Below, piece by piece: positions 15,758 through 58,294 of a stretch of DNA of 64,000 bases. Each line of letters starts with the position of its first letter. Positions within the stretch are counted from its first letter, which is position 1. Source of the DNA: Veillonellaceae bacterium (lineage in GTDB: Bacteria; Bacillota_C; Negativicutes; UBA1444); contig JAAZNU010000008.1 of NCBI GenBank assembly GCA_012798135.1, positions 36,785-100,784 of the forward strand, read 5' to 3'. Below the pieces are notes generated by a model that made no database searches, was not told where the DNA came from, and saw nothing but the letters and a program-made list of their open reading frames with translations. The position numbers and the translations under genes are program-made.

Positions 15758-16744
15758 TCAGCGGCCGGAAAAAATACAGCTGGGATCTTCCGCCAGATAA
15801 TCGCCGGCCGACGCATGCCAGGCCCGGGCCCGACAGCCGCCGCAAATATTCTGGTAGCCGCAGGCGCCGCATTGCCCGCCCAGTTCGGCCCGACGCAGAT
15901 CCGCGAACAGCGGCGACTCCCGCCACAGCTTCGCGAAGCCGCCGTCCCGGATGTTGCCCGCCTTCAGCGGAAAATACGGGCAGGGCTGCAGATCGCCGTT
16001 GGGCAGAATCACGCAGTAAGCCGTGCCGGCGATGCAGCCTTTGCTGAACCGCATCGGAATGCCTTTTTCGGCGGCGATCCGCATGAACTGCGGTGCGCAG
16101 GTCGGCTTTAATTCGATGGACACCTGGCGCTGCTTCTCCAGGATTTTCTGGAGCAGGGCCTCCTGGCGCTCGACCGGCAGACTGCGGTCCTTGATGTTGT
16201 CGCCGCGTCCTGTCGGCACCAAAAAGAAAATGTGATGGGCCACCGCGCCCCACTCGACGGCCAGATCGGTGATTGCCAGCGTTTCCGCCTCGTTCCAGTC
16301 CATCACCGTGGTATGGACCTGGAACGGCAGGCCTCCTTCGCGACAGGCTTTCATTCCAGCGACAGTGGCCGCCCAGGCCCCTGCCGACTGACGGAACCAG
16401 TCGTGCCGGCCGGCGTCGACGCTGTCGATACTGATGCCCGCCGCCGCCAAACCCGCTTCCTTCAGTTCCGCCACCTTGGCCGGCGTCAGCAGAATGCCGT
16501 TTGTGCCCAGCACCGGCCGCAGTTTTTTCGACCGGGCATAGGCGATCAGTTCCGTCAGGTCCGGCCGCAGCAGCGGCTCGCCGCCGGAAAAAACGAAAAT
16601 CCGAAATCCGCAGTCCGCCGCCTCGTCGAGCAACCGCTTGCCTTCGGCCGTCGTCAGTTCGTCCCGCAGACAATCCCCCGCATCGCGATAACAATGCAGG
16701 CAGTTGATATTGCAGGCTTGGGTCGTATTCCAGGAAATCAGCAT
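15758..16744 (-). CDS. nirJ2: Radical SAM haem-pathway protein NirJ2 (AhbD-like)
   Basis: 328 residues. The ATG lies in ATGCTGA, overlapping the nirJ1 stop. Radical SAM motif CNINCLHC near residues 10-17, GGEPLLRPDL for SAM binding, and a C-terminal SPASM-type set of cysteines (CPYFPLKAGN, CGACGYQNICGGCRARA, SCIF). NirJ2/AhbD proteins act in the siroheme-derived haem route found in anaerobes, where AhbD decarboxylates Fe-coproporphyrin to haem b. The pairing with NirJ1 is typical of Negativicutes and Heliobacteria. Other ahb genes are not in the window. Confidence 0.88.
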   Translation of the reverse strand: MLISWNTTQACNINCLHCYRDAGDCLRDELTTAEGKRLLDEAADCGFRIFVFSGGEPLLRPDLTELIAYARSKKLRPVLGTNGILLTPAKVAELKEAGLAAAGISIDSVDAGRHDWFRQSAGAWAATVAGMKACREGGLPFQVHTTVMDWNEAETLAITDLAVEWGAVAHHIFFLVPTGRGDNIKDRSLPVERQEALLQKILEKQRQVSIELKPTCAPQFMRIAAEKGIPMRFSKGCIAGTAYCVILPNGDLQPCPYFPLKAGNIRDGGFAKLWRESPLFADLRRAELGGQCGACGYQNICGGCRARAWHASAGDYLAEDPSCIFSGR

Positions 16745-17931
16745 TTCTTCGCTTCTTTCGCCACATCCGTCCAGAAACAGGCGGGATCGTCGCCCCAGAT
16801 GTCCCCATCCACCGACGCCCGGATCCGGCAGCCGCCACACAGCCGGTTTTGCGAACACTTGCCGCACTGGGCGTTCAGCTGCGCCGGTTTGGTCCGTAGC
16901 CGGGCCAGGATGCCGTCATTGGCCTCCAGGTCGTTCCAGATCTCGCTGAACTTGCGCTCCCGGACATTGCCCAACGTCAGATCGCTCCAGAACTGGCAGG
17001 GATGTACGTTGCCGAGATAATCGACATCCGCCATGCGGTCGCCGGCCGAACAGCCGCCGTGCAACTCCAGCAGCTGGCGGACTTCCGGCACGCGGGCGGG
17101 ATTTGTTTTGGCGATGTAATCCAGCAGATACAGGCCGTCGGCATGGTTGTCGGTCGTCAATATCTCGAGCTCGACGCCGCGCCGGTCGAAATCCAGCGCC
17201 TTGTCGATCAGCAGCTGGGCCACCTCGCGTTTTTCGTCCAGCGTCACATCCAGGTTCTTCATATCGCCGCCCCGGCCGGCGTAGACCAGGTGATACATGC
17301 AGAACCGGTCGATTTTTTCCTGTTCGATCAGATCCAGAACCGCCGGCAGATCCCGTTTGTTCAGACTGTTGAGTGTAAACCGGACCCCGGTGCGGTTACC
17401 CGCCGCCTTGGCCGCCCGGATGCCGGCGATGGCCGCCGCAAAGGCGCCCTTCTCGCCCCGGAACATATCATGGGTCTCTTCGCAGCCGTCGATGCTGACG
17501 CCGACGTACTGGAAGCCCGCGTCTTTGATCAGCTGCGCCGTGAAATCGTCGATCAGCGTCCCGTTGGTGGACAGAACGATCCGCAGTCCCTTTTCCACCG
17601 CGTAGGCCGCCAACTCGAACAAATCCGGCCGTACCAGTGGTTCGCCGCCCGAAAACATCAGTACCGGCACTTTCATTTCCGCCAGGTCGTCGATGAACGC
17701 CATCCCGTCGGCAGTCGTCATCTCGTTGTCCTTGGCCGCCTCGGTGGCTTCGATGTAGCAATGCCGGCATTTGAGATTGCACTGGGAAGTGATGTTCCAG
17801 ACCACGACCGGCGACCGCTCGGATGAGAACTGCAACAGATTGGCCGGCATGGCGCCGTGGCCGTGACGCTGCCGCATCACGTCGGAAATGGTGGCTGTAC
17901 CGCACAACAATTTGGTGAACCCTATCAACAA
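16738..17931 (-). CDS. nirJ1: Radical SAM haem-pathway protein NirJ1 (AhbC-like)
   Basis: 397 residues. N-terminal IGFTKLLCGTATISD is the hallmark head of the AhbC/NirJ1 group; radical SAM motif CNLKCRHC near residues 52-59, GGEPLVRPDL, then SPASM cysteines (HPCQFWSDLTLGN, CGKCSQNRLCGGCRIRA, CFW). AhbC removes two acetate side chains of 12,18-didecarboxysiroheme to give Fe-coproporphyrin. Starts with TTG at 17931 or 17928 after GGGAGG. First gene of nirJ1-nirJ2-aroH-GT2. Confidence 0.88.
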   Translation of the reverse strand: MLIGFTKLLCGTATISDVMRQRHGHGAMPANLLQFSSERSPVVVWNITSQCNLKCRHCYIEATEAAKDNEMTTADGMAFIDDLAEMKVPVLMFSGGEPLVRPDLFELAAYAVEKGLRIVLSTNGTLIDDFTAQLIKDAGFQYVGVSIDGCEETHDMFRGEKGAFAAAIAGIRAAKAAGNRTGVRFTLNSLNKRDLPAVLDLIEQEKIDRFCMYHLVYAGRGGDMKNLDVTLDEKREVAQLLIDKALDFDRRGVELEILTTDNHADGLYLLDYIAKTNPARVPEVRQLLELHGGCSAGDRMADVDYLGNVHPCQFWSDLTLGNVRERKFSEIWNDLEANDGILARLRTKPAQLNAQCGKCSQNRLCGGCRIRASVDGDIWGDDPACFWTDVAKEAKKC

Positions 17932-46636: not shown

Positions 46637-47587
46637 CTAAAACGGCGTGTCCGACCCCGTATAACAAATCAGCCCCTGCGCCTGAATGAGCTTCTGGATA
46701 TGCTCCATCTGCTCCGGCTCCGGCGATTCCTGTTCACGGTAGGGGTAAACCATGCCGCACTGTTTCCACTTCGAATCGCCCAGGCGGTGGAACGGCAACA
46801 CATTGATTTCGGACAAACCGGCGTCTTTCACAAACTTCGCCGTCGCCACGATATTTTCGTCGTTATCGTTATAACCGGGAATAATCGGGATGCGAATGAT
46901 CAGGCGGCCCGGCCATGAATCCTGGGCCAGCGCCTTGACGTTTTTAAGGATCTGTTCATTGGAAACACCGGTTTGTTCCTGGTGTTTCGCCGCGTCCATG
47001 TGTTTGATGTCCACAAAGGCGAAATTGACGTATTGCAGAACAGACAAGAACTGTTCCTGCGGGAAACAGGCGCTCGTTTCGATCGCCGTATGGATATAGG
47101 CTTCCTGACAGCGTTTCAGCAACGCCCGCGTAAAATCTTTCTGGGCCACGGCATCGCCGCCGCTCAGGGTAACGCCGCCGGTATGGCCCCAATAGTGGCG
47201 ATCCCGCTCGAATATTTTCATCAATGCGGGGATGGTATACCATTTGCCGCATAGAACCATGGCCTCTTTCAGGCAGGCCTGCGTACACTCGAATGTTTCG
47301 CAGGTCTTGCATTTTTCCCAGTCGATCTCCAGCGGTCCTTTGCCGTCCGCACCGGCACTGACGGCCTGGTACGGGCAGCGTTTGACGCAGCGGATGCAAC
47401 CTTCCTTGTCATGCACGCATTTTGTCATCCGATACATCATGCGCTGCTTGGCCTGCCAACCTTCCGGATTGGCGCACCACTCGCAGCGTAGCGGACAACC
47501 CATAAAAAAAACGGTAGTTCTGCACCCCGGCCCATCGTGTACGGAATAACTCTGAATATCAAAAATCAGACCTTTTAGCTCATCCAA
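46637..47587 (-). CDS. hpdA: 4-hydroxyphenylacetate decarboxylase activating enzyme
   Basis: 316 residues from TTG at 47587, seven bases after GGGAGG; this length equals that of clostridial HpdA. Radical SAM motif GCPLRCEWC (Cys 31, 35, 38), two ferredoxin-like sets (TKCVHDKEGCIRCVKRCPY; CKTCETFECTQAC), then GGVTLSGGD. It makes the glycyl radical on HpdB with SAM and reduced Fe-S clusters. It is separated from hpdB-hpdC by the transporter gene. Confidence 0.92.
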   Translation of the reverse strand: MDELKGLIFDIQSYSVHDGPGCRTTVFFMGCPLRCEWCANPEGWQAKQRMMYRMTKCVHDKEGCIRCVKRCPYQAVSAGADGKGPLEIDWEKCKTCETFECTQACLKEAMVLCGKWYTIPALMKIFERDRHYWGHTGGVTLSGGDAVAQKDFTRALLKRCQEAYIHTAIETSACFPQEQFLSVLQYVNFAFVDIKHMDAAKHQEQTGVSNEQILKNVKALAQDSWPGRLIIRIPIIPGYNDNDENIVATAKFVKDAGLSEINVLPFHRLGDSKWKQCGMVYPYREQESPEPEQMEHIQKLIQAQGLICYTGSDTPF

Positions 47588-47697
47588 GACTTTCCCTCCC
47601 ACCGCTGCTATGCCAGGGAGAGGAACGACGGCATGGTAGCGCCGCACGTTCCCTCTCCCCCATCACTGTTGCAAAATTGCTGATTGGTTAATTCCGG

Positions 47698-49011
47698 TCA
47701 GTCGTCGCCGGAGACCGGTTTACTGAGATCCAACGCCGCTTCCTTCGCCGTCGCCTGCAGCGGCAGCAGGAATGCCACGATGGCCGACAGGGCGAACGCG
47801 CCCATGGCGAACTGGATCGAAGCCGTGAAATTACCGGAGGTATCGGCCAGATAGCCACCCATGAAGCTGCCCAGGGCGGGACCGATCCCCATGACGATCA
47901 ATGTAGCCGTCCCCCAGATTTTTCCCAGGCTGACCCGACCGTACACCGCGCCGGCGTAACCGACCACCCCGCCCGGTTCAATGGCCCAGTAAACGGCGAA
48001 CAGGATACATACGACCACGCCGAGCAGGAAGGATTTTGCGTTCATCATCAGCAGCAGGACGCAGGCGACCAAGCCGACCAGCGGCGCCGCCACCAACATG
48101 ATTTTCCGGCCTTTCACTTCATTGCCGATGGAGGTGACAACCTTGTCGGCAACAACGCCCATCAGCGGCATCGTGAAGATACCGGCGACGCCGATGGCCA
48201 CATACAGGTTCGTGGCGGTATCCAGCGGCATCTGCAGATCTTTTGTCCAGTAACGGACGACCTGCGTCCAGATCAGGAATTCGGCGACCATACTGGTCAG
48301 GAATGCAATGACTGCACCCCAGATGGCGGCAGTGCCGAAGGCTTCGCCGACACTCCAGATATGCTCTTTCTTGGCGGCGGTTCCCGGCGCCGCCGGCATG
48401 GAGCCGAAGGGCTGAATTCCGTATTGTTCGGGATTTTTCTTCGCCAGCGCCGAAGCAATCAGCAACATGACCAACATAATCCAGGCAAGGTAATTCATGG
48501 CATCACGCCATTGCGCCGCATTCTGCACCAGCAAAGGCTTGACGCCCAGGCTCAGAAGCACTTGCGCCATCGGTGCACCGGCAAAGGCGATGCCCCACAT
48601 TTTGGCGTAGTATTTGCCGATGAACCATTTGCGGACGGAGATGGTCGACGACACCCACAGCATGCCGGTGCCGATCCCGGCGCAGATTGCATAACAGGCA
48701 TAGTAGGCGTAGAGAGTTTCCACCCGGCTGGTCAGATAAAAGCCGAGCATCCCGAACACCGCCGCAATCGCGTAAACCGGCTTGGTTCCCCACTTATCAA
48801 GAATCATACCACTGAAAAAGGCGGTGATGGCGTAAATGGTCATCATCAGGGAATAGCCCAGGGATACTTGCGCTCCCGTCCATTTCATGGTCTGCGCCAT
48901 GGGTCCGGACAGAACCGCGAACGTGGCCCGGTAGCCGAACAGGCAGAACACGGCCAGCCAGGCGGCGGCAATTACACTGTAGGACATACGCTTGGCGTTG
49001 TTTTCGTCCAT
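47698..49011 (-). CDS. OFA-type major facilitator transporter in hpd cluster
   Basis: 437 residues, 12 membrane helices, with the MFS loop motif DKWGTKPVYA between helices 2 and 3. It is of the oxalate/formate antiporter-like group, as found for carboxylate uptake. Lying between hpdC and hpdA, it is the obvious candidate for uptake of 4-hydroxyphenylacetate (or exchange for p-cresol or bicarbonate); that substrate is inference. A strong hairpin precedes it. Confidence 0.85.
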   Translation of the reverse strand: MDENNAKRMSYSVIAAAWLAVFCLFGYRATFAVLSGPMAQTMKWTGAQVSLGYSLMMTIYAITAFFSGMILDKWGTKPVYAIAAVFGMLGFYLTSRVETLYAYYACYAICAGIGTGMLWVSSTISVRKWFIGKYYAKMWGIAFAGAPMAQVLLSLGVKPLLVQNAAQWRDAMNYLAWIMLVMLLIASALAKKNPEQYGIQPFGSMPAAPGTAAKKEHIWSVGEAFGTAAIWGAVIAFLTSMVAEFLIWTQVVRYWTKDLQMPLDTATNLYVAIGVAGIFTMPLMGVVADKVVTSIGNEVKGRKIMLVAAPLVGLVACVLLLMMNAKSFLLGVVVCILFAVYWAIEPGGVVGYAGAVYGRVSLGKIWGTATLIVMGIGPALGSFMGGYLADTSGNFTASIQFAMGAFALSAIVAFLLPLQATAKEAALDLSKPVSGDD

Positions 49012-49117: not shown

Positions 49118-49381
49118 CTATTTGGTCTGGAACATTTCGCAGTTAACCGCTTTCATTTCGCCATAGGCCCAGTATTCATCCTTGAAGCCACCGCACTGGC
49201 CGATTCCCTTTTCATCGGGGCAGCCGAATTTGGAGCAGCCTTTGCATTTGGCGACTTGGGCGAATTTCGGGCAAACCGGAGTATCGATCACGACATTGGC
49301 TTTCAGCATTCTGCAGTAGCCTTTTGCCACGTCGATCGGAATGAAATTCTGGCAATCGCTGTGATTCACATTGTTCTTCAT
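49118..49381 (-). CDS. hpdC: 4-hydroxyphenylacetate decarboxylase small subunit
   Basis: 87 residues, cysteine-rich, close to clostridial HpdC in length and pattern. HSDC (His 7, Cys 10), GYCR (Cys 23) and PVCP (Cys 37) match the first [4Fe-4S] site, and CKGC (46, 49), GQCGGF (63) and NCEMF (81) the second, with one extra Cys at 54. HpdC is unique to the hydroxyarylacetate decarboxylases and helps assemble and tune the large subunit. It begins four bases after hpdB. Confidence 0.93.
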   Translation of the reverse strand: MKNNVNHSDCQNFIPIDVAKGYCRMLKANVVIDTPVCPKFAQVAKCKGCSKFGCPDEKGIGQCGGFKDEYWAYGEMKAVNCEMFQTK

Positions 49382-49385
49382 CGCA

Positions 49386-52097
49386 TTACACCCCTTCGTA
49401 CTCAGTTCTGGAAATAACTTCGTCTTGAATCGGTTTGCCGATTTCCACCCAATATTGGGTGAATCCGGCCACGCGGACCATCAGATCACGATATTCGTCC
49501 GGGTTGGCCTGCGCTTCGACCAAAACCTTGGAGTCGACGATGTTGTACTGGATGTGGTAGCCGCCACGCCGCATATAGGCCCGGGTCAGGTCGAGCAGTT
49601 TCTTGGCGCCTTCGACGCCTTTGACCGCATTCGGATGAACTTTCAGGTTCATCTGCGAGTTCTGGGATTGGGAATGATCCCAGCAGGTCGCGGATTCGAA
49701 CAGAGCGAACGGACCGTTGCGGTCGGTGCCGGGATAGGCCGACATCGAGCCGTCGGCGTAGGTAGTGCCGGACAGGCGGCCGTCGGCAGTGGCCAGAGTG
49801 GCAGCACCTTGCGCGCCATGGGTGGAAACGGAAATCTGGCAGCTGTACATCGGTTTGCCGAACAGGGATTCGGCGCCGTGGCACATTTCGCAGAACCATT
49901 CTTCATATTCGCGCAGGATCGAGTCGGCATATTCGTCGTCGTTGCCATATTTCGGCGCTTTCAGGCAGTCGCTGTGGATTTCGTCGTAGGTATCGCTTTC
50001 GTCGCGTTTTTCCTGCGCCGCCAGCGAGAAGCTGCCGATTTCCGCCGCATTTTTGAAACCGAAATTGTTCTTGATGGCATCCCGCATTTGCTCCAGCGTG
50101 TATTTTTTCTCGTCGTAGACCAGCTTCTTCATCGCCGCCAGGGCGTTGACCATCGTGATCTGGCCGCAGCTTTCCACATTGAATGTGGCATTGTAGCGAT
50201 AGCCCATGTTGCCGATATGCTGGCCCTTTTCCAGGCAATCCGGCTTCAGCAGGGAGTTGAAGAGAGCCATGTTCTGCTTGCGCCAGATGTCGTGCTGCAG
50301 GTTGTTGGTGGTCGCCAGGCAGTCCACGATGATTTCATAGTAGTGTTTGTAAACTTCCCACATTTCCTCATAGGTTTCGAGTTTCTTGTTGTGGGCCGGC
50401 ACGACCTGTTTTTTAGTCCGCTGGTCATAGCCATTGAATAGTACCAACTCGAGAACCTTGGGATTGGCGATGAAGTGGACGCCGACGCTGGTCGGAGTGC
50501 CGGAACCGCCGGGAATCCAGTATTTCTTGCCGTTCAGGGTCAGTTCTTTCCAGGAACCGGGCGACGTTTCGAGGCAGCCGCCGATAGCCACGGCGCGGGA
50601 TTCTTCCAGGTTCATCCCTTCGGCGCCATACTGTTTCATCATGAACTCCATCGCGCCGCGATTGTTCATCCAGGCCGGATAGCCGGTCCCGGTCTTGTCG
50701 CATTCGATGCATTTCAGGAGGAATTCCTCCGGCAGTTTTTCGTCATACAGCACGGACAGGGTCGGCTGCGGCGTCGGGCACTTGATGCCGGCTTCGACGA
50801 TCAGCATTTCCAGACGGTTGGCGGCCGATTGGCCATTCCGTTGCAATCCGCCCATTGTCAGGTTGTTGAAGGTATTGCCGGACAGCACGCCGCCGACAAC
50901 GCCCATGGAGGCGAAGCAGTCGATGCAGGTCATCTTGACCCGGTGGCATTCCAGCAGTTCGGTGACTTCCTCTTCCGTGGTGCGGCCGGCGGCAATGTCC
51001 TGCTCGAACCAGGGCCAGAGCACCTGGCCGACACGGCCGGGGGACATGCCGGAAATCGCGTCTTCGTTGACCACGCCGATGTGGATCATGTAGATCATTT
51101 GCAGCGCTTCGCGGAAGGTACGCGGTTGTTTGTGGGCGATCCACTCCATGGTGTCCGCCATTTCTTCGTATTCGCGTTTCTGGGCGGGATCGGTCTCCGT
51201 GGCTGCCAGACGTTTCGCTTCCTTGGCATAGTTCAGGTGCCAGGCCTGGATGCCTTCCAGTACCAGGCGCGCCGCTTCGTAGAAATACAGGCGGCCCGTG
51301 CCGGTGATGCCGTCGCCGTCGGCCCGGCCGGCAACCCGATCCTTGCCTTTTTTGGCCATTTCGATCAGGCCGTCATAGCCATATTGCAGCGGGAAGTAGT
51401 AGTTGATGACTTCACGGCCCTGCGGCAGGGTGTAGCCGGAGTCGAACATGCAGATGACGCTGCGCATGACTTCTTCTTTGATCTGATATTCCGGAACCAT
51501 CTGCTCGTATTTGTGGCCCAGATCATCAACGGATTTATTCACCCAGGCTTTGGCCAGTTTCAGCAGCGCGGGAACTTCTTCCGCCCGAATGCCGAATTTC
51601 CCGGCGATCGATACGACGTTGCCGACGCTCTTGGTCACGTTGCCGCCGCCGGCGCCAAACTTGCTGACTTCGTCGGCGCTGGCGCCGCCTTTGGCCAAAG
51701 CTGCCTGGTACAGTTCATCTTCCTTGGCCATGAAGAAACCTTCGGACAGCCAGGGCATCGGGAATGAACCGCGATAGTAGGCCGCTTTGCCGCCGATCAG
51801 TTTCTCGCCGGGCCAGATCGTGGTGGAAATATGGGAGAAAGCATGGTTCAGAGCCATGGCCCGCCGCACTTCGGGAACCTCATACTCCATCTCCTGATAT
51901 TTCCGGGTGTACCAGTACGGGAACTCCACGTTGACCGAAGATAATGTTCCGAGGTATAAGTCCATCAATTTTTTGGTCCGGGGAAACGGCTCCTTGTGTA
52001 CCTCACGGTCCACCAAGTTTTCCGGCGCGTCCCCGCCGTACTGCAGATTGAGGGACATGCCTTTTTCCGCCAGAATGTCGACCAACTTCTTAGCCAT
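49386..52097 (-). CDS. hpdB: 4-hydroxyphenylacetate decarboxylase, glycyl radical subunit
   Basis: 903 residues from ATG at 52097 (GGAGG seven bases upstream; the frame is open further but without a site). Glycyl radical loop RVAGFTQYW with Gly 878, thiyl Cys 508 and Glu 510 in GGCLETSPG. The residues that hold 4-hydroxyphenylacetate in the clostridial enzyme are all present: Ser 349 (DAISGM), His 541 (GVHFIAN) and Glu 642 (NVESCG). With HpdC it decarboxylates 4-hydroxyphenylacetate, from tyrosine breakdown, to p-cresol. Indoleacetate decarboxylases lack HpdC, which argues against that activity. Confidence 0.93.
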
Positions 52098-52250
52098 GTA
52101 CAATCCTCCTCGTATTTTCTGACTATGCATCGAATCTGGAAGGCGTATCGTCTGCGTACCCGCCTCCGTATGCACAACTTCATTCTACTTTCGGGCGACA
52201 TTCGCCGCCATTGACCGCGAGTCGGATTATCGGCCGATTTATTCGGCGTA

Positions 52251-52265
52251 AACTTTCTGAAAGTT
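52251..52265. promoter_or_regulatory. Palindrome upstream of hpdB, candidate activator site
   Basis: AACTTTC-T-GAAAGTT is a perfect inverted repeat about 155 bases before the hpdB ATG. Ten bases of it (TCTGAAAGTT) recur at 56218-56229, just upstream of the PocR-LuxR gene, which suggests the regulator acts at both places. Confidence 0.5.
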
Positions 52266-52369
52266 GTAGAAAAGTATGAGTTCGGCTATTCAAGGGCAAT
52301 TTAGGTCGTAAAGGTCTTATTCTTTACAGCCAAAACGGGGTCGGCTTTTTCGCCGAGCAAAAAAAAAAA

Positions 52370-52402
52370 TCGCTGCCCGACCATGATAGCCGTCAGCAGC
52401 GA
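52370..52402 (-). terminator. Terminator after the regulator operon
   Basis: TCGCTGC pairs with GCAGCGA; the minus strand ends in a run of 11 Ts. It separates the regulator genes from hpdB. Confidence 0.75.
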
Positions 52403-52440
52403 CTGAACGCATTGAACAATATTTACGCAACCGTCTTGGG

Positions 52441-53358
52441 TTACCGGCCGTACTGCATGGCCTGGATGAAAGTCTCATCCTTGCGCAGTTGCAACAAGGC
52501 CTCCACGGTTTTGGCATCCCACTCGCCCGTTCGGGCCTCATCCCGCAAAATGGACAGGCATTCATCCTTGTCCGCATGGTTTTGTCGCAATTCCAGAAAG
52601 CGGTTGACAGTATTCATGATCCGCAATTCCGGCAACACATCCTGCTCGGCCGCCGCGTCCCGAGGAAAGTCCGGGCTGTTCACCTTCGTATGATGCCAAC
52701 GGACAAACAGGGTCAACCATTCCCCCATTTTCAACGGCCGCACGATGTCTTCCCCCACGACTACATGATCCGGGTCCGTCAACGGCCGGATGACCGCGCC
52801 GATTTCGCACAAGCAGGCCGCCGCCACGAGCCGGTCCAGCTGCGTTTCCAACAAGCCCAACAACCGCCCGACTTTCTCGCAAAGCTGACTCCGCTGAATG
52901 GCCTGCTGATAAAGCAGCTCGTCTTTGGCCCGCATCAGGACCAGAAAGGCATTGCACAAGGGCCGTCGGGATTCCATGCTGTCAAATACCTGCTTGCGTT
53001 GCAGGCAGGACGAAATCACATACTTTAACTCGTTGTAATTCGGCGGTTTGGAGATGAAACTGCTGGCGCCGACCTTGAATCCGCGGATCCTGTCTTCTAC
53101 ATCGTTGAGCGCCGTCAGCATGATGACCGGAATATATTCCGTCTTCGGATTGCGTTTCAGTTCGCGGCAGACCTCGAACCCGTTCATTCCCGGCAGCATC
53201 ACATCCAGCAGGATCAGATGTGGTGGCGTGCTCCGCGCATACTCCAGCGCATCCATCCCTTGGAACACCTTGTCGACCTCATAACCCCAGGAGGAGATTA
53301 CGTCCCGCATCAATTCACAATTTTGCTCGTTGTCGTCCACGATCAGGATTTTAGCCAA
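52441..53358 (-). CDS. Response regulator with degenerate HD-GYP-like output domain
   Basis: 305 residues, TTG start after AAGGA. Receiver domain (1-120) with DD at 8-9, phospho-acceptor Asp 52 and Lys in FISKPPN. The C-terminal half has the helix pattern of HD-GYP domains, but the metal site is gone: ACLCEIGAVIRP stands where AALLHDIG is expected, and WHHTKVNSPDFPRD replaces HH-GYP. So it is unlikely to cleave c-di-GMP and may bind a ligand or partner. Last gene of the trio LuxR-kinase-regulator, 4 bases behind the kinase. Confidence 0.8.
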   Translation of the reverse strand: MAKILIVDDNEQNCELMRDVISSWGYEVDKVFQGMDALEYARSTPPHLILLDVMLPGMNGFEVCRELKRNPKTEYIPVIMLTALNDVEDRIRGFKVGASSFISKPPNYNELKYVISSCLQRKQVFDSMESRRPLCNAFLVLMRAKDELLYQQAIQRSQLCEKVGRLLGLLETQLDRLVAAACLCEIGAVIRPLTDPDHVVVGEDIVRPLKMGEWLTLFVRWHHTKVNSPDFPRDAAAEQDVLPELRIMNTVNRFLELRQNHADKDECLSILRDEARTGEWDAKTVEALLQLRKDETFIQAMQYGR

Positions 53359-53362
53359 TGTT

Positions 53363-55444
53363 CTAGTCCTTCCCTATGCTTTCGGAATCCGCATCGCCGC
53401 CCCCCGGCAGCGGCAAGGTAAACACCACTTCCGTGCCGATGCCTTCCTTGCTGATCAGAAAGATTTGACCGCCATGCATCTCCACCAATTTTTTGGTGAG
53501 CGGCAAACCCAGCCCGGTTCCTTCGTAAAGCCGCTGATACGAATTGTCAACCTGCTCGAATTCCACGAACACCCGCTCCTGATCCTCGTCCCGGATGCCG
53601 ATCCCGTTGTCGCGGATACGGAACTGAGCGAAATGCTCCTGTCGGAAGGCCTCGACTTCAACCTTGCCATTATCCGGGGTAAACTTGACGGCATTGGACA
53701 AAAGATTGTACAGAATCTGCTTGACCTTGACCGCATCCGCCCGGACTATGAAATCCGGCGGTTCCATCCGCACACTGAGCTCAATGTTTTTGCGGCTGGC
53801 GATGCTGCGGACCACGGCGCAACTGTTCTCGATGATCTCCGCGATATAAAAATCATTCAGCGTCAGATTCATCTTGCCGGCTTCGATTTTGCAAATGTCG
53901 AGGATGTCGTTAATGAGTTGCAACAAATGGTTGCCATTATTCAGCGCATTTTGAATATGCTTCTCCTGTTTTTCCGTCAGCGGCCCGAATACCCGGCCGA
54001 TCAACGCCTCCGCGCTGCTAATGATGGCCGACAATGGCGTCCGGAGTTCGTGACTCATATTGGCCAAAAACTGCGATTTGACGCCGTTGGCTTTTTTCAG
54101 CGCCTCGACCGCCTGGACCAGCTCCAACGTCCGGGCAACGACTTTGCCCTCCAATTCGTCATTCATTTCCTGCAGCTGCCGGGATAAGGCCACCTGCTTC
54201 TGATGTTCCTGCCGAAGCCGTTCCAGATATTCTTCGTTCGTTTTTTCGCTGGCCTCCAGCGAAGCCGCCATTTTTTGAAAAGTAGTCAGCAAAATGCCGG
54301 TTTCACTGTGAGGATTCTCGACCCACTCCGGTTGCAACACCAGATTGCGTTCGCCCTGCGCCAATTTTTCGGCGAATCGGGTGGCCGCCATGATTGGCTC
54401 GGTAATCACTCCGGCAAAATAACGGCCGATGATCAGCATCACGGTCAGGCCCAGGATCGTCACCGCCACAATCAGATATTGATTGGTCGACAGAATGACA
54501 GCAAATTTTTCCTCGGGAATGCCGACCCCCAAGGCGGCGGTGACTTCCCCTTTGTGATTGATGATCGGCTCGTCCAAAAACACGTGAACCTCATCATTGA
54601 AGTCGACCCGGCCAAAAAAGTATTGTTTGGGGCCGTCCAACGTTTTGTTGGTTATGGGAATCCGACTGCCGATGTAGTTTTCCTTCGTGGGCGTCTGGAT
54701 ATTGGAAGACACGCGAATCCCGTCGGTAGATATGGCCAAAAAGGAATTTTCGACCTGGCGGCTGTAGAAAGCCGGAAAATACGAATCGTTGTTGACCGCG
54801 TCGCCCACCACGAGATAGCCGATCAGCTGATCGGCGCGAACCTCGTCAAAGATCGGGATCACAGCCAAGCCGATCTGGCACTTGGTCAAATATTCCTGAT
54901 TGCCGGCTGAATCCCAGCGATTGGCGATCGGGATCTTAAACCGCTCATAACTGGCGGAATTCGAAAAAAACAAATCGCCCAGGGGCAGGGCTTCCTCCGA
55001 AGTAATGGAGCGGCCCTGTTCCGATACGGTCTGAACCAGCCCGTCGAGGTCCCAGGGCATGTCGTCGCGCAAATCGTAGGATACGCGGGCGATCGGCCAC
55101 CGTTCGGCGTTCAGGACGGCCGCGACATCCAGATAGTCATAGATTTGCCGCAACTTGATCAGTTCCTCCACCAGCAATTTTTCGTTGCCGGCCCTTACGC
55201 CAATTCGGAAAGCCGGATTCTGCGCCAGCCGCTGGCCGCCTTTTTCCATTTCCGCCTTGCGCATCAGCATCTGGGTTCGGGCAATCTTTAGCGCACTCTG
55301 CAAATACAGCAGTTCGCTCTCCTTTTTTTGCTTGTCCATGATGATGGTGGACGAAACGAACAGGGCAACCATAGGCACGGTTACGGCCACGAACACGAAC
55401 AGCAGCAGTTTTTTACGGATTGACAGATTGTAGAGCCTACTCAC
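53363..55444 (-). CDS. dCache sensor histidine kinase, probable hpd regulator
   Basis: 693 residues. Membrane helix 11-36, a large external dCache-like sensor (37-320), second helix 323-345, HAMP, coiled coil (395-450), HisKA with phospho-acceptor His 465 (NMSHELRTP), and HATPase with NLLSNAVKFT, DNGIGI and GTGLGLPL. No receiver domain. GTG start overlaps the LuxR gene stop. Cache domains often bind amino acids and carboxylates; 4-hydroxyphenylacetate or an aromatic acid as signal is inferred only from the neighbouring hpd genes. Confidence 0.88.
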   Translation of the reverse strand: MSRLYNLSIRKKLLLFVFVAVTVPMVALFVSSTIIMDKQKKESELLYLQSALKIARTQMLMRKAEMEKGGQRLAQNPAFRIGVRAGNEKLLVEELIKLRQIYDYLDVAAVLNAERWPIARVSYDLRDDMPWDLDGLVQTVSEQGRSITSEEALPLGDLFFSNSASYERFKIPIANRWDSAGNQEYLTKCQIGLAVIPIFDEVRADQLIGYLVVGDAVNNDSYFPAFYSRQVENSFLAISTDGIRVSSNIQTPTKENYIGSRIPITNKTLDGPKQYFFGRVDFNDEVHVFLDEPIINHKGEVTAALGVGIPEEKFAVILSTNQYLIVAVTILGLTVMLIIGRYFAGVITEPIMAATRFAEKLAQGERNLVLQPEWVENPHSETGILLTTFQKMAASLEASEKTNEEYLERLRQEHQKQVALSRQLQEMNDELEGKVVARTLELVQAVEALKKANGVKSQFLANMSHELRTPLSAIISSAEALIGRVFGPLTEKQEKHIQNALNNGNHLLQLINDILDICKIEAGKMNLTLNDFYIAEIIENSCAVVRSIASRKNIELSVRMEPPDFIVRADAVKVKQILYNLLSNAVKFTPDNGKVEVEAFRQEHFAQFRIRDNGIGIRDEDQERVFVEFEQVDNSYQRLYEGTGLGLPLTKKLVEMHGGQIFLISKEGIGTEVVFTLPLPGGGDADSESIGKD

Positions 55445-56168
55445 GGTTGTGTTCCTTGCAGAACATTACCAGTTGCATCCGGTCTTTCATGCCCGTCTTG
55501 GCCAAAATATTGCTGATGTGGGATTTCACGGTTGTTTCACTGATATATAATTTTTCGCCGATTTGTTTGTTGCTCAGGCAGGCGCATACCTCCCGGGCGA
55601 TATCCATCTCCCGGCGGCTGAGCTGGTGTTTCAGAAAGAACAGATCCACGGCCGATTGGTTGGCTGTCTCGGTATCCGACGCGGATTCGATCTCGGCGGC
55701 TGCATCAAAATTGAGCAACTCCAGCGTGTTTTGCAATAGCTCCAACATATCGCCGAACTGTTGCTCCGACATGACGGTGACATTTTCCGCCAGCTTATTG
55801 TCCAGGCACACTTTGTCGCCCTCTAGTCGCACGCCGCCGCCATAGGCCACGCAGACAAGCTTGTCCCGAAAGTAGACCGGCGAGATGAAAAAAGTCAACC
55901 CCATATAGCATTTGAAGGCACGGGTCATCCCCTGCGCCAGCACTGATTTTGCGGCGGATTCCCGTTCCTGGAGGCAGCGGCTCCGGTTATTCTTCATCAT
56001 ATAGTAACAAAACAACGAAGAATTCGACCAGATAGTGTGTGTCTTTCCCTCCAGCGACAACAAACACAGACTGATTCCAAACGTCCGGGCAAACGAATCC
56101 TGATAAGCTTGCAGCTTGCCCTTGCCAATCCGTCTGACCCAGTCCAAAAACAAACCGTATTCGTTCAA
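55437..56168 (-). CDS. PocR-domain LuxR-type transcription factor
   Basis: 243 residues. Residues about 8-150 form a PocR sensory domain: QDSFARTFGISLCLLSLEG, NRSRCLQERESAA, and CYMGLTFFISPVYFRDKLV. A GerE/LuxR helix-turn-helix follows (LSRREMDIAREVCACLSNKQ, ISETTVKSHISNIL). PocR domains bind small molecules such as diols or hydrocarbons. No receiver domain, so it may act in parallel with the kinase pair. First gene of the operon before hpdB. Confidence 0.85.
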   Translation of the reverse strand: MNEYGLFLDWVRRIGKGKLQAYQDSFARTFGISLCLLSLEGKTHTIWSNSSLFCYYMMKNNRSRCLQERESAAKSVLAQGMTRAFKCYMGLTFFISPVYFRDKLVCVAYGGGVRLEGDKVCLDNKLAENVTVMSEQQFGDMLELLQNTLELLNFDAAAEIESASDTETANQSAVDLFFLKHQLSRREMDIAREVCACLSNKQIGEKLYISETTVKSHISNILAKTGMKDRMQLVMFCKEHNRE

Positions 56169-56436
56169 ATCATCGCCTCATTTCTCGCGACGGTATCCGA
56201 CCAATATTCCGGATACCGTCTGAAAGTTTACCATGTACATGTTCGCTGCCGTTTCACATCTTCCTGCCTGAACTGGCTCCGTCGTCTGGCGTTTCCGGCG
56301 GAAACCGCCGGACTACACAGCATTTATACACTTTCTTTATTCCCTCCGCAAGTTTCCTGACGCCTTTTTGACGGGTGACTGTGTTAAGATGGGAACAGAC
56401 AATTTTACAGACTTAGAGACAAAGGAGGCATCGACC

Positions 56437-56562
56437 ATGAGCGGCGAAGGAGCGGCGACGTTTCCGCTGTTGACCTTTTTTATCGGCTTTGGGGTTGGAT
56501 TGCTACTGTACCCGAAATTGATCGGCTTTCCCAGTGGTACTCCCAAAGACCGACAAAACTGA
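56437..56562 (+). CDS. 41-residue single-pass membrane protein
   Basis: MSGEGAATFPLL, then a membrane helix TFFIGFGVGLLLYPKL and a polar tail with GTPKDRQN. ATG follows AAAGGAGG with nine bases between, an excellent site. Divergent from the hpd regulator operon; upstream the sequence TTGACG and TAAGAT are seen but badly spaced. Function unknown; small helices with Gly-x3-Gly spacing often join larger membrane complexes. Confidence 0.7.
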   Translation: MSGEGAATFPLLTFFIGFGVGLLLYPKLIGFPSGTPKDRQN

Positions 56563-56795
56563 CGCAACGCCGGACTGCTGTTCGTTCTGAACTATCCCCC
56601 AATCAGACAGATAGGTGAAAAAGATAAATTGCGAAGAAAATGGATGCCGGAAGGTGTCCATTTTCATTTGGATCAGACAGCAAAGCAACGGCTTTGCGCT
56701 GGACTAGGTGCGGACAGCCGCGTCGCAAAAAAACGAACGCCAAACAATCCCTATGTTGTCTTCAACCGGCAAGTGTCCTTTTTTACGCAAAAAAG
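56563..56795. other. Intergenic stretch with no supported gene
   Basis: Frames on the plus strand here are short and without ribosome sites. I see nothing convincing besides the terminator that follows. Confidence 0.4.
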
Positions 56796-56850
56796 GCTCC
56801 CTTCAAAGTTTTCAGATGTGTTTATTGCATCTGTCTACTTTAAAGGGAGC
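56796..56850 (-). terminator. Terminator after the YfcC-family gene
   Basis: GCTCCCTTCAAAG...CAGATG pairs with CATCTG...CTTTAAAGGGAGC; the minus strand ends in TTTTTT. Confidence 0.85.
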
Positions 56851-56896: not shown

Positions 56897-58294
56897 CTAT
56901 GCCGGACCCCATTTCATAATTTGCAAAATTGTAATGGCGACAAACGCCAAACCGAGTTGGGTGACGAGGAACGGCCAGAACCAGCCGACATATTTTTCAT
57001 AGGAAATATTAGAAATGCCGAGACAGCCCATGACCACGCCCGCAGTCGGAATGATGCAGTTGGTGAAGCCATCGCCGAACTGGAAGGCCTGCGTGGCTAC
57101 CTGCCGCGTGATCCCCGTCAAATCCGCCAGAGGAACCATGATCGGCATTACGGTAACAGCCTGTCCCGAGCCGGAAGGAATAAAGAAGTTGATAACGATG
57201 TTGGCGGCCAGCATCAGGTTGGCGCCCAGCACCGGCCCCGCCTGGGCGATGGGCAGTGACAGCCAGTTGACGATCGTATCAATGATCTTGCCGTCGGTCA
57301 TGACCACGGAAATCGCTCTGGCCATTCCAATGACAAAACCGGCGTAAACCATCGTCCCGCAGCCCTTAACAAAAGAATTGGCCGTACCGGTGATCCCCAG
57401 CCCACCGACGAGTCCGCTGAATACCGCCATCATAATGAATACCACCGAGTAATGCTGAATTCCCCAGTTCAAGCGGATGGATCCGTAAATGATCGCCGCG
57501 AAGGAAAGGAAGGCAATCAGCAAACAGAGAATCTGGCGCGTAGTCAATTTTTCGTCCTTGTCATGTTCTGCCGCTTCCGCCGCCTGAACTTTGTTGGGAT
57601 CATACGTCAGGCTCTTGGTCGGATCCGCCTTGATTTTTTTGATATACATGGCCACAAATCCGAAGGTCATGACCAAGTTGACGACATGGAACAACACCCG
57701 AACGCCCATGCCGGAAAACATCGGTAACTCGGCGATGCTGTGGGCAATGCCGACGGTGAAGACGTTGCCCCAGCCCACATTGAAGCCGGCGTAGGAGCCG
57801 AGATAAATCATCCCGAACCCCACCACTTCATCATAACCAAGCGCCTTGGACAGCATCAAACCAATGGGCATCAGCGCCACGACCGGATTGGCAAACACAC
57901 CGGTAGCTCCGCCAATGGACATAATTGTCATTACAATTCCTACCGCATATAGTTCCTTGCCTTTCAGGCCCCTGACCACTTTTGCCAGACCAACCCGGAT
58001 TGCGCCGGTTTGCTCCAAGGTCGTGATCGCCGCACCTACAAAAAACACCATGAAAATCATCACCGCCGACTGCTGCCAGCCTTTGGCGACGGACTCAAAC
58101 ACCTGCCAGAATCCTTGGGGCTGCGACTTTACCAAATGATAAGAGCCGGCGACAACTTTGGTGATCGCGCCCTGTTTCACCCGGGTAAATTCGCCGGCCG
58201 GGACAATCCACGTCAAAATTGCCATAAAAATTGTAATCATAAACATAAGCGCAAAAACATGAGGAAATTTAAATTTTGTCTTTCTCTCCGTCAC
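56897..58294 (-). CDS. YfcC-family (DcuC/AbgT-like) carrier
   Basis: 465 residues, about 11-13 membrane helices, beginning with a short basic tail and FPHVFALMFMITIFMAILTWIVPAGEF, the family signature; GGATGVFANPVVALMPIGLML and INFFIPSGSGQAVTVMPIMVPL are the paired re-entrant regions. Relatives carry C4-dicarboxylates, aminoacyl compounds or arginine/ornithine. The upstream inverted repeat and the nearby LysR gene suggest regulated uptake. Substrate open. Confidence 0.85.
   Translation of the reverse strand: MTERKTKFKFPHVFALMFMITIFMAILTWIVPAGEFTRVKQGAITKVVAGSYHLVKSQPQGFWQVFESVAKGWQQSAVMIFMVFFVGAAITTLEQTGAIRVGLAKVVRGLKGKELYAVGIVMTIMSIGGATGVFANPVVALMPIGLMLSKALGYDEVVGFGMIYLGSYAGFNVGWGNVFTVGIAHSIAELPMFSGMGVRVLFHVVNLVMTFGFVAMYIKKIKADPTKSLTYDPNKVQAAEAAEHDKDEKLTTRQILCLLIAFLSFAAIIYGSIRLNWGIQHYSVVFIMMAVFSGLVGGLGITGTANSFVKGCGTMVYAGFVIGMARAISVVMTDGKIIDTIVNWLSLPIAQAGPVLGANLMLAANIVINFFIPSGSGQAVTVMPIMVPLADLTGITRQVATQAFQFGDGFTNCIIPTAGVVMGCLGISNISYEKYVGWFWPFLVTQLGLAFVAITILQIMKWGPA

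Follow-up and report, generated by a model that had tools for sequence, protein, structure and literature searches.

A 64,000-nucleotide stretch of DNA from a Veillonellaceae bacterium (GenBank assembly GCA_012798135.1, contig JAAZNU010000008.1, positions 36,785 to 100,784 of the forward strand; here called the window) carries a three-gene regulatory cassette in front of the hpd genes for 4-hydroxyphenylacetate decarboxylase (HPAD). The cassette encodes a PocR-LuxR transcription factor, a membrane histidine kinase, and a response regulator; its parts are known, but the way they are arranged is unusual, and the cassette is real and conserved. Among 13 loci with a PocR-LuxR gene and its kinase gene, window included, 11 adjoin HPAD genes, one adjoins an indoleacetate decarboxylase (IAD) gene, and one adjoins none. 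We propose, with the chances evenly balanced, that the cassette is dedicated to external arylacetates and that an outside and an inside signal together gate the hpd genes through contact between the response regulator and the LuxR-type protein.

The cassette and the hpd genes

Read along the minus strand toward hpd, the gene order is PocR-LuxR, kinase, and regulator, followed by hpdB, hpdC, an MFS transporter gene, and hpdA:

55437..56168, minus strand: PocR-LuxR transcription factor; open reading frame (ORF) of 243 amino acids with a TTG start; PocR at about residues 17 to 130, GerE helix-turn-helix (HTH) at residues 182 to 236
53363..55444, minus strand: membrane histidine kinase; ORF of 693 amino acids with a GTG start; extracellular Cache sensor, HisKA with HELRTP, and HATPase_c
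52441..53358, minus strand: response regulator; ORF of 305 amino acids; intact receiver at residues 1 to 121, eroded HD-GYP-derived helical domain at about residues 146 to 270, conserved C-terminal helix
52357..52404, minus strand: predicted intrinsic terminator between the trio and hpdB; hairpin of -20.3 kcal/mol, z -4.2, then a T-run
49386..52097, minus strand: hpdB, HPAD large subunit; ATG at 52097 after AGGAGG; NCBIfam equivalog
49118..49381, minus strand: hpdC, small Fe-S subunit; NCBIfam equivalog
47698..49011, minus strand: MFS transporter, putative arylacetate importer (Pfam); homologues beside hpd elsewhere
46637..47647, minus strand: hpdA, radical-SAM activase; NCBIfam equivalog

By the ORF calls, the kinase gene overlaps luxR by 8 nucleotides (nt) and the regulator gene starts 4 nt after the kinase gene, in agreement with a preliminary description of the window in which the genes overlap or nearly touch. 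The window holds the full HPAD set, with the large subunit, the small Fe-S subunit, and the activase all over their NCBIfam equivalog cut-offs (score/cut-off: hpdB, 1676.9/1150; hpdC, 101.5/50; hpdA, 468.9/420).

Recurrence beside arylacetate decarboxylase genes

The preliminary description had suggested a search for the same three-gene order beside other glycyl radical decarboxylases. Among the best 80 loci of a genome contig scan, dominated by generic receivers, only L001 (Caproiciproducens galactitolivorans) and L002 (Clostridiales DTU086) matched at more than 40% over the full length, and L003 reached 31% over residues 4 to 289. At both L001 and L002, the luxR, kinase, and regulator genes stand before the hpd genes in the order seen in the window. 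These same-order trios, together with the 12 of 13 loci that adjoin arylacetate decarboxylase genes, bear out the view of the trio as a conserved unit tied to such enzymes.

To place the recurrence in numbers, the hpdB model was run against 398 genomes of the phylum of L001 and L002, and 12 of them had hpdB-like genes: 10 over the cut-off, one at 1117.7 bits, and one split over two contigs. The sub-cut-off genome G289 (locus L129) also scores 885 against the IAD cut-off of 1100. The PocR-LuxR plus kinase pair lies beside hpdB in 8 of these 12 genomes, and the remaining 386 gave no further two-domain PocR-LuxR match (Fisher P = 3.4e-14, kinship ignored). Against the same 398 genomes, the LuxR profile gave nine two-domain matches (240 to 343 bits), all at cassette loci, the next match being one of 99 bits to the HTH part, and the HD-like part of the regulator gave four strong matches, all at hpd loci of type A as defined below. 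All nine and all four are rows of the query alignments; therefore, only the absence of others is informative. Up to 2 candidates per genome were scored in the hpdB search and up to 7 or 8 in the LuxR and regulator profile searches, so that further genes may be missed; the sample sets (398, 21, 22, 394, 63, and 20 genomes) overlap, and some genomes are fragmented.

Searches in other groups added three loci, L170 and L171, which adjoin hpdB, and L169, which does not; two of the sample sets searched for this purpose yielded no new locus. Genome G033 also carries an IAD gene (NF033718, 1576 bits; cut-off, 1100), the sole clear IAD in the hpdB listing, and around it (L131) lie a PocR-LuxR gene, the start of a kinase gene, and a receiver gene, the locus being cut by the contig end. 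Furthermore, four contig sizes (13508, 13729, 202643, and 11481) recur among the database relatives of both LuxR and the regulator, which suggests that the two genes are linked among these relatives too.

The cassette comes in two arrangements. In type A (the window, L001, L002, L121, and L122), it is codirectional with hpd and ends in a receiver-HD regulator; in type B (L123, L124, L125, and L132), it is divergent from hpdB and comprises a shorter PocR-LuxR protein, a kinase, and a separate receiver. A receiver-HD protein is also present at three of the four type B loci, while L123 has a second receiver of 136 amino acids instead. With starts taken from the longest ORFs, luxR and the kinase gene overlap or lie no more than 19 nt apart at all 11 loci measured, and a receiver gene stands beside the kinase gene at all 11 loci with a whole kinase gene and a long enough contig. 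At L131, where the kinase gene is truncated, and at L171, where the contig stops beyond the kinase gene, the regulators are partly or wholly out of sight.

As to transcription, the preliminary description had the trio pointing at the hpd genes; the direction is right, but the predicted terminator at 52404-52357 would make the trio a transcription unit of its own. A folding scan with a z-score found this hairpin, which a simple terminator scan did not list, and terminator-like hairpins also lie 3' of the regulator gene in L001, L002, L121, and L122 (z -8.1, -5.8, -3.6, and -5.3, respectively). Altogether, the trio and the hpd genes are predicted to be separate transcription units at all five type A hpd loci. 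An Rfam scan of positions 52000-56800 gave no match up to an E value of 0.5.

Within the fetched regions, all eight cassette-bearing hpdB genomes hold a homologue of the MFS transporter and the four cassette-free ones hold none, and it lies beside hpd in every HPAD genome where the cassette was seen; another MFS protein near L126 does not match it. In the excerpted text of PMC6181972, this transporter is present in the gene clusters of an organism whose cresol and skatole come from arylacetates only and absent from those of an organism that makes the two compounds from amino acids, and import is proposed. An MFS importer fits a system with an outside (Cache) and an inside (PocR) sensor.

The hpdBCA locus L126, which lacks the cassette, has a divergent gene for a PAS-sigma-54 activator (L126:8257-9753), and the regulators of HPAD may differ between lineages. 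Other neighbors of cassette-free hpdB genes (L127:14450-15490 and L128:10741-13503) resemble, by eye, what we take to be MtaA/corrinoid methyltransferase components, and a second glycyl radical enzyme with its activase is encoded directly downstream of hpdBCA at L128:3546-6735.

Covariation of the cassette genes

Distance-matrix correlations were calculated for nine hpd loci, leaving out L125 (a near-copy of L124), L132, L131, and L169. Across these loci, LuxR and kinase distances correlate with each other at r = 0.97 and with those of hpdB, hpdA, and MFS at r = 0.05 to 0.33, while those of hpdB, hpdA, and MFS correlate among themselves at r = 0.74 to 0.82; much of this pattern reflects the A/B split. 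Within the five taxa of type A, r is 0.96 for LuxR-kinase, 0.81 for LuxR-regulator, and 0.75 for kinase-regulator, while all three lie between -0.14 and 0.22 against the hpd genes. When the orphan trio of L169 is added to type A, LuxR-regulator rises to 0.86, a value reached by 1 of 720 permutations, namely, the identity. Since LuxR and kinase distances track each other and not those of the hpd genes, whether the two types are compared or type A is taken by itself, the cassette appears to have been recruited to the hpd operon as a unit. For hpdB, no branch of the best tree or of 200 bootstrap trees sets either type apart from all other loci.

An intact receiver joined to an eroded HD-GYP domain

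The regulator scores 97.1 bits against the Pfam model Response_reg and 23.2 bits against HD_5, which is under the cut-off of 27.2; its relatives at L121 (51.1 bits) and L122 (46.0 bits) are over it. The receiver is intact (D8, D9, D52, T82, and K104), and D52, T82, and K104 are invariant in the window's clade of 24 proteins, gapped rows set aside. Metal-site residues were read by alignment to the canonical HD-GYP protein L132:5879-6835. The preliminary description had called the HD-GYP part dead, and the window has indeed lost the first H (Q152), the HD dyad (C184 E185), the following K (A188), GYP (D230 F231 P232), and the last D (N252), but three metal-site histidines are retained (H198, H222, and H223).

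Among the trio orthologues, L001, L002, L121, L122, and L169 keep the HD dyad and following lysine that the window has lost, and four of the five (the exception being L002) have GFP or GYP where the window has D-F-P. The set of metal ligands is complete in L121 (P0091, Thermosyntropha lipolytica), lacks only the last D in L001, L122, and L169, and is eroded at other positions in L002. In alignment A6, the HD histidine is lost throughout the 24 rows of the window's clade (C in 23, Y in 1), and of the 49 rows outside it, 28 retain the set H, HD, K, H, and HH, 34 show N in place of the final D, and 7 have the complete set of ligands. Because orthologues range from intact to differently eroded sites, the erosion, as read from these alignments, is graded and lineage specific. 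A dead site is thus a feature of the window's own clade rather than of the system; an intact one, which the preliminary description had named as refuting evidence, is found in the L121 orthologue but not in the window's clade. Given that the Thermosyntropha protein keeps all ligands while the window has lost H-D, K, GYP, and the last ligand, catalysis seems dispensable for the regulator.

Mean pairwise identity among the 24 proteins of the window's clade is 83% in the receiver and 53% in the HD-like part, with invariant residues in both. Structure prediction of the regulator on its own, another check suggested at the outset, gave an AlphaFold 2 model with a mean predicted local distance difference test score (pLDDT) of 93 and a confident, all-helical second domain. 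In searches of PDB structures with the regulator, the matches listed were taken up by the receiver. As the HD-like domain appears folded, constrained, and noncatalytic, model and alignment together suggest a binding role, protein binding being likely. Pfam detected no DNA-binding domain in the regulators of the window, L121, L122, L132, and L170, and none was apparent at the remaining loci, which were judged by alignment or length; the preliminary description had reported the same for the window. The closest named relative of the regulator comes from a Negativicutes metagenome-assembled genome (P0018, 61%). Five relatives on viral contigs all match the receiver part only.

The PocR-LuxR protein and the kinase

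Both domains of the window LuxR protein exceed their Pfam cut-offs (PocR, 60.8 bits, cut-off 23.9; GerE, 60.6 bits, cut-off 23.5). Its AlphaFold 2 model has a mean pLDDT of 79, and a Foldseek search with the model matched LuxR-type receptors, RhlR-PqsE entries included, at whole-chain template modeling (TM) scores of 0.2 to 0.36, a likeness at the domain level only. By sequence, no relative of known structure was found for the PocR part; the matches cover the HTH part. The gene neighborhood points to an arylacetate, 4-hydroxyphenylacetate or indoleacetate, as the presumed ligand of PocR. By its domain content, PocR-LuxR is the only DNA-binding member of the cassette and therefore very probably acts on hpd. 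It is likewise the sole candidate DNA-binding partner for the regulator within the unit, as the preliminary description had proposed. Three PocR cysteines, C54, C65, and C87 (present in 38, 39, and 38 of 39 rows, respectively), were considered as a special feature and rejected, as they occur in unrelated PocR proteins too.

The kinase scores 30.3 bits against sCache_3_3 (cut-off, 28.8), and its HisKA and HATPase_c domains are over their cut-offs. It had been described as an extracellular dCache sensor. One Cache unit is supported by Pfam; the length, about 290 amino acids between two hydrophobic stretches (by eye), would be compatible with a double Cache.

Upstream elements and other neighbors

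Two related elements lie upstream of hpdB and luxR:

52248..52265, minus strand: candidate operator upstream of hpdB; perfect palindrome AACTTTCAGAAAGTT, one arm extended to GTAAACTTTC
56219..56231, minus strand: half-site GTAAACTTTCAGA matching the candidate operator, upstream of luxR; the only other copy in the window

The window holds two exact copies of the word GTAAACTTTCNGA, one ahead of hpdB and one ahead of luxR. Between the start codon of luxR and its half-site, and in contact with the latter, lies an 11-bp inverted repeat (GACGGTATCCG ... CGGATACCGTC) at 56189-56220.

An expectation-maximization (EM) motif search of 10 hpd upstream regions, L125 left out, returned Shine-Dalgarno-like words at width 16, with a log-likelihood ratio (LLR) of 56.1 versus 37.8 to 52.5 for six controls, and again at width 20 (66.8 versus 51.5 to 60.4). 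A palindromic EM model over the hpd upstream regions reached 28.3 at width 16 (controls, 22.1 to 31.4) and, at width 18, 31.8, slightly higher than the 26.9 to 30.7 of six controls, with sites at scattered positions. At each of the five type A hpd loci, the longest word common to the regions upstream of hpd and of luxR was equaled in 36 to 187 of 200 shuffles (36 in the window). By eye, the window upstream regions bear no likeness to the Clostridioides difficile repeat AAAAAG-N13-CTTTTT. In four of the 10 regions (L002, L123, L132, and L171), the motif search placed a second GGGAGGTGA-like Shine-Dalgarno word about 70 to 110 nt upstream of the hpdB start; its window equivalent, by eye, is GGAGG at about 52163-52167. 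This second word possibly marks a leader peptide or an RNA element.

Upstream of luxR on the same strand, positions 56897-58294 hold a DcuC/YfcC-type carrier gene, for which no homologue was found beside other cassettes in a BLAST comparison of the fetched loci. Elsewhere in the window (15758-17931), two adjacent genes encode radical-SAM-like proteins with cysteine-rich C termini that are SPASM-like by eye.

Proposed mechanism and alternatives

In the mechanism that we propose, PocR-LuxR would be the DNA-binding activator of the hpd operon and would use PocR to sense an intracellular arylacetate, probably 4-hydroxyphenylacetate. The Cache kinase would sense an outside signal, probably the same compound or one accompanying it, and would phosphorylate the receiver of the third protein, which appears to have no DNA-binding or working catalytic part. 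In its phosphorylated or unphosphorylated form, this regulator would bind PocR-LuxR and set its activity, and transporter and decarboxylase would be made only when both signals agree. The ligands, the operator, the regulator-LuxR contact, and the sign of its effect are what we infer here. Since the regulator has no DNA-binding domain and a decayed enzyme domain, the outside signal probably reaches the hpd genes through protein-protein contact. The specific form of a two-signal gate, in which a ligand-bound LuxR-type receptor is licensed by a phosphorylated, non-DNA-binding, dead HD-GYP-derived regulator serving as a kinase-controlled coactivator, in a cassette recruited to arylacetate decarboxylases, is put forward tentatively, its chances falling a little short of even.

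Several observations weigh against this proposal. The palindrome at 52248-52265 is a candidate operator only, weak by itself, because the repeated 13-mer falls short of significance in a fair shuffle test (16 of 200 shuffled pairs give an equal match) and GTAAACTTTCNGA occurs in none of the 197 loci searched, with no operator common to the loci. Four of the 12 hpdB genomes (L126 to L129) have no cassette beside hpdB. Conversely, L169:6612-10279 is a full type A trio in a genome in which no hpdB was found (best glycyl radical match, 164.5 bits) and whose assembly may be incomplete; although trios are far from being found only away from arylacetate decarboxylases, this one has either lost its operon, suffered from an incomplete assembly, or serves another target. 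In the four taxa of type B, the cassette correlates with the hpd genes at r = 0.52 to 0.95 and is not decoupled from them. Correlated distances may also arise from linked inheritance alone, without contact, and the type A values come from five or six taxa. Of the 11 inner branches of the hpdB tree, only 4 are well supported, and these are compatible with one origin for each type. Finally, the ligands assigned to PocR and Cache are presumed from the gene neighborhood.

Among the alternatives, PocR-LuxR alone might switch hpd, with kinase and regulator forming a separate, nontranscriptional branch (for example, one that targets the transporter or second messengers or serves as a phosphate sink) that is merely coinherited. 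We consider this unlikely but still a serious contender. A regulator without a DNA-binding domain would suit such a branch, as would the descent of its second domain from HD-GYP enzymes, some relatives of which have all ligands (L121; 7 of 49 rows) and could still be hydrolases, and the separate receiver at type B loci, as sinks or relays have. However, LuxR varies with the kinase (r = 0.96 to 0.97) and with the regulator (0.81 to 0.86), which the hpd genes do not do in type A, and the tight coupling of the luxR and kinase ORFs at 11 of 11 measured loci argues against independent branches. That same coupling, with LuxR-kinase as the strongest covariation (r = 0.96), is also what would be seen if the cytoplasmic part of the kinase bound LuxR directly, holding or releasing it, while the receiver protein drained phosphate or reset the kinase, and the differing make-up of the regulator in types A and B agrees with this. 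Yet the kinase core is an ordinary HisKA/HATPase_c with an HExxT motif, its partner receiver is intact, and kinases of this sort are not known to bind LuxR-type proteins directly; we regard direct action as improbable.

Cross-talk occurs in two-component systems, and the kinase might also phosphorylate a DNA-binding response regulator that is encoded elsewhere and acts on hpd. With a receiver gene beside the kinase gene at all 11 loci able to show one, this is decidedly improbable. Least credible of all is that the trio is an unrelated neighbor of the hpd genes: the predicted separate transcription unit and the hpdB-less trio of L169 would be in keeping with it, but recurrence beside arylacetate decarboxylases at 12 of 13 loci, in two arrangements, nearly refutes it.

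Significance and comparison with known systems

The regulator that induces hpdBCA of C. difficile was called unknown in the excerpted text of PMC7925072 (2020). The words regulator, sensor, and kinase are absent from the main text of PMC6181972, as are regulator and two-component from PMC13285125 (2026), which deals with HPAD gene clusters. In the open-access literature, searched by title or abstract opening, we found no account of the cassette; the subscription literature lay outside the search, and a printed account is possible. HPAD makes p-cresol, and a conserved candidate regulatory cassette for it can now be named in other Firmicutes. The cassette goes with operons that hold a putative arylacetate importer, and the puzzle that it poses is narrowed to one contact, that of the regulator with LuxR. 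If true, the proposal would add a clear example in which a receiver protein acts through an eroded enzyme domain to control a one-component receptor, and the relatives of that protein form a graded series from an intact to a dead metal site.

Two systems, one built on HnoD of Shewanella oneidensis and the other on RhlR of Pseudomonas aeruginosa, whose ligand is an acyl-homoserine lactone, would by analogy make a regulator-LuxR contact ordinary in principle. The preliminary description had held that the path from kinase to transcription is "not explained by known schemes"; it was right on the association and on LuxR as the likely target but overstated both the lack of precedent and the weight of the dead site. 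In the HnoK/HnoD/HnoB system, as excerpts of PMC6335343 describe it, HnoD is a response regulator that is fed by a kinase, carries a degenerate HD-GYP domain, and acts by touching its partner protein directly, like the regulator proposed here; however, HnoD suppresses the cyclic di-GMP phosphodiesterase HnoB, and a separate DNA-binding HnoC exists, whereas the only neighbor on which the window regulator could act is a LuxR-type factor. In the parts of PMC8754118 that concern RhlR, the DNA affinity of this small-molecule-binding, LuxR-type factor is raised by the enzyme-fold protein PqsE, whose catalysis is not needed for the effect. Unlike the window regulator, PqsE lacks both a receiver domain and input from a kinase.

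Other systems share the layout. In the PDU1D microcompartment loci and the 1,3-propanediol operon of Clostridium butyricum, as partly covered in PMC4207490, PocR sensing and a two-component system stand beside a substrate operon, but PocR lies within the PDU1D kinase, whereas the window has PocR in a LuxR protein of its own and a regulator devoid of a DNA-binding part. The pdu cluster of Acetobacterium woodii likewise has kinase and regulator genes upstream of catabolic genes, although, from the excerpted account in PMC7593272, its response regulator itself binds the pdu promoter region. Finally, the PhcS-PhcQ-PhcA system of Ralstonia, compared by its abstract-level description (PMC12993560), resembles the proposed mechanism in that a two-component pair leads to the activation of a separate transcription factor, and differs from it in having a LysR-type target and a quorum signal.

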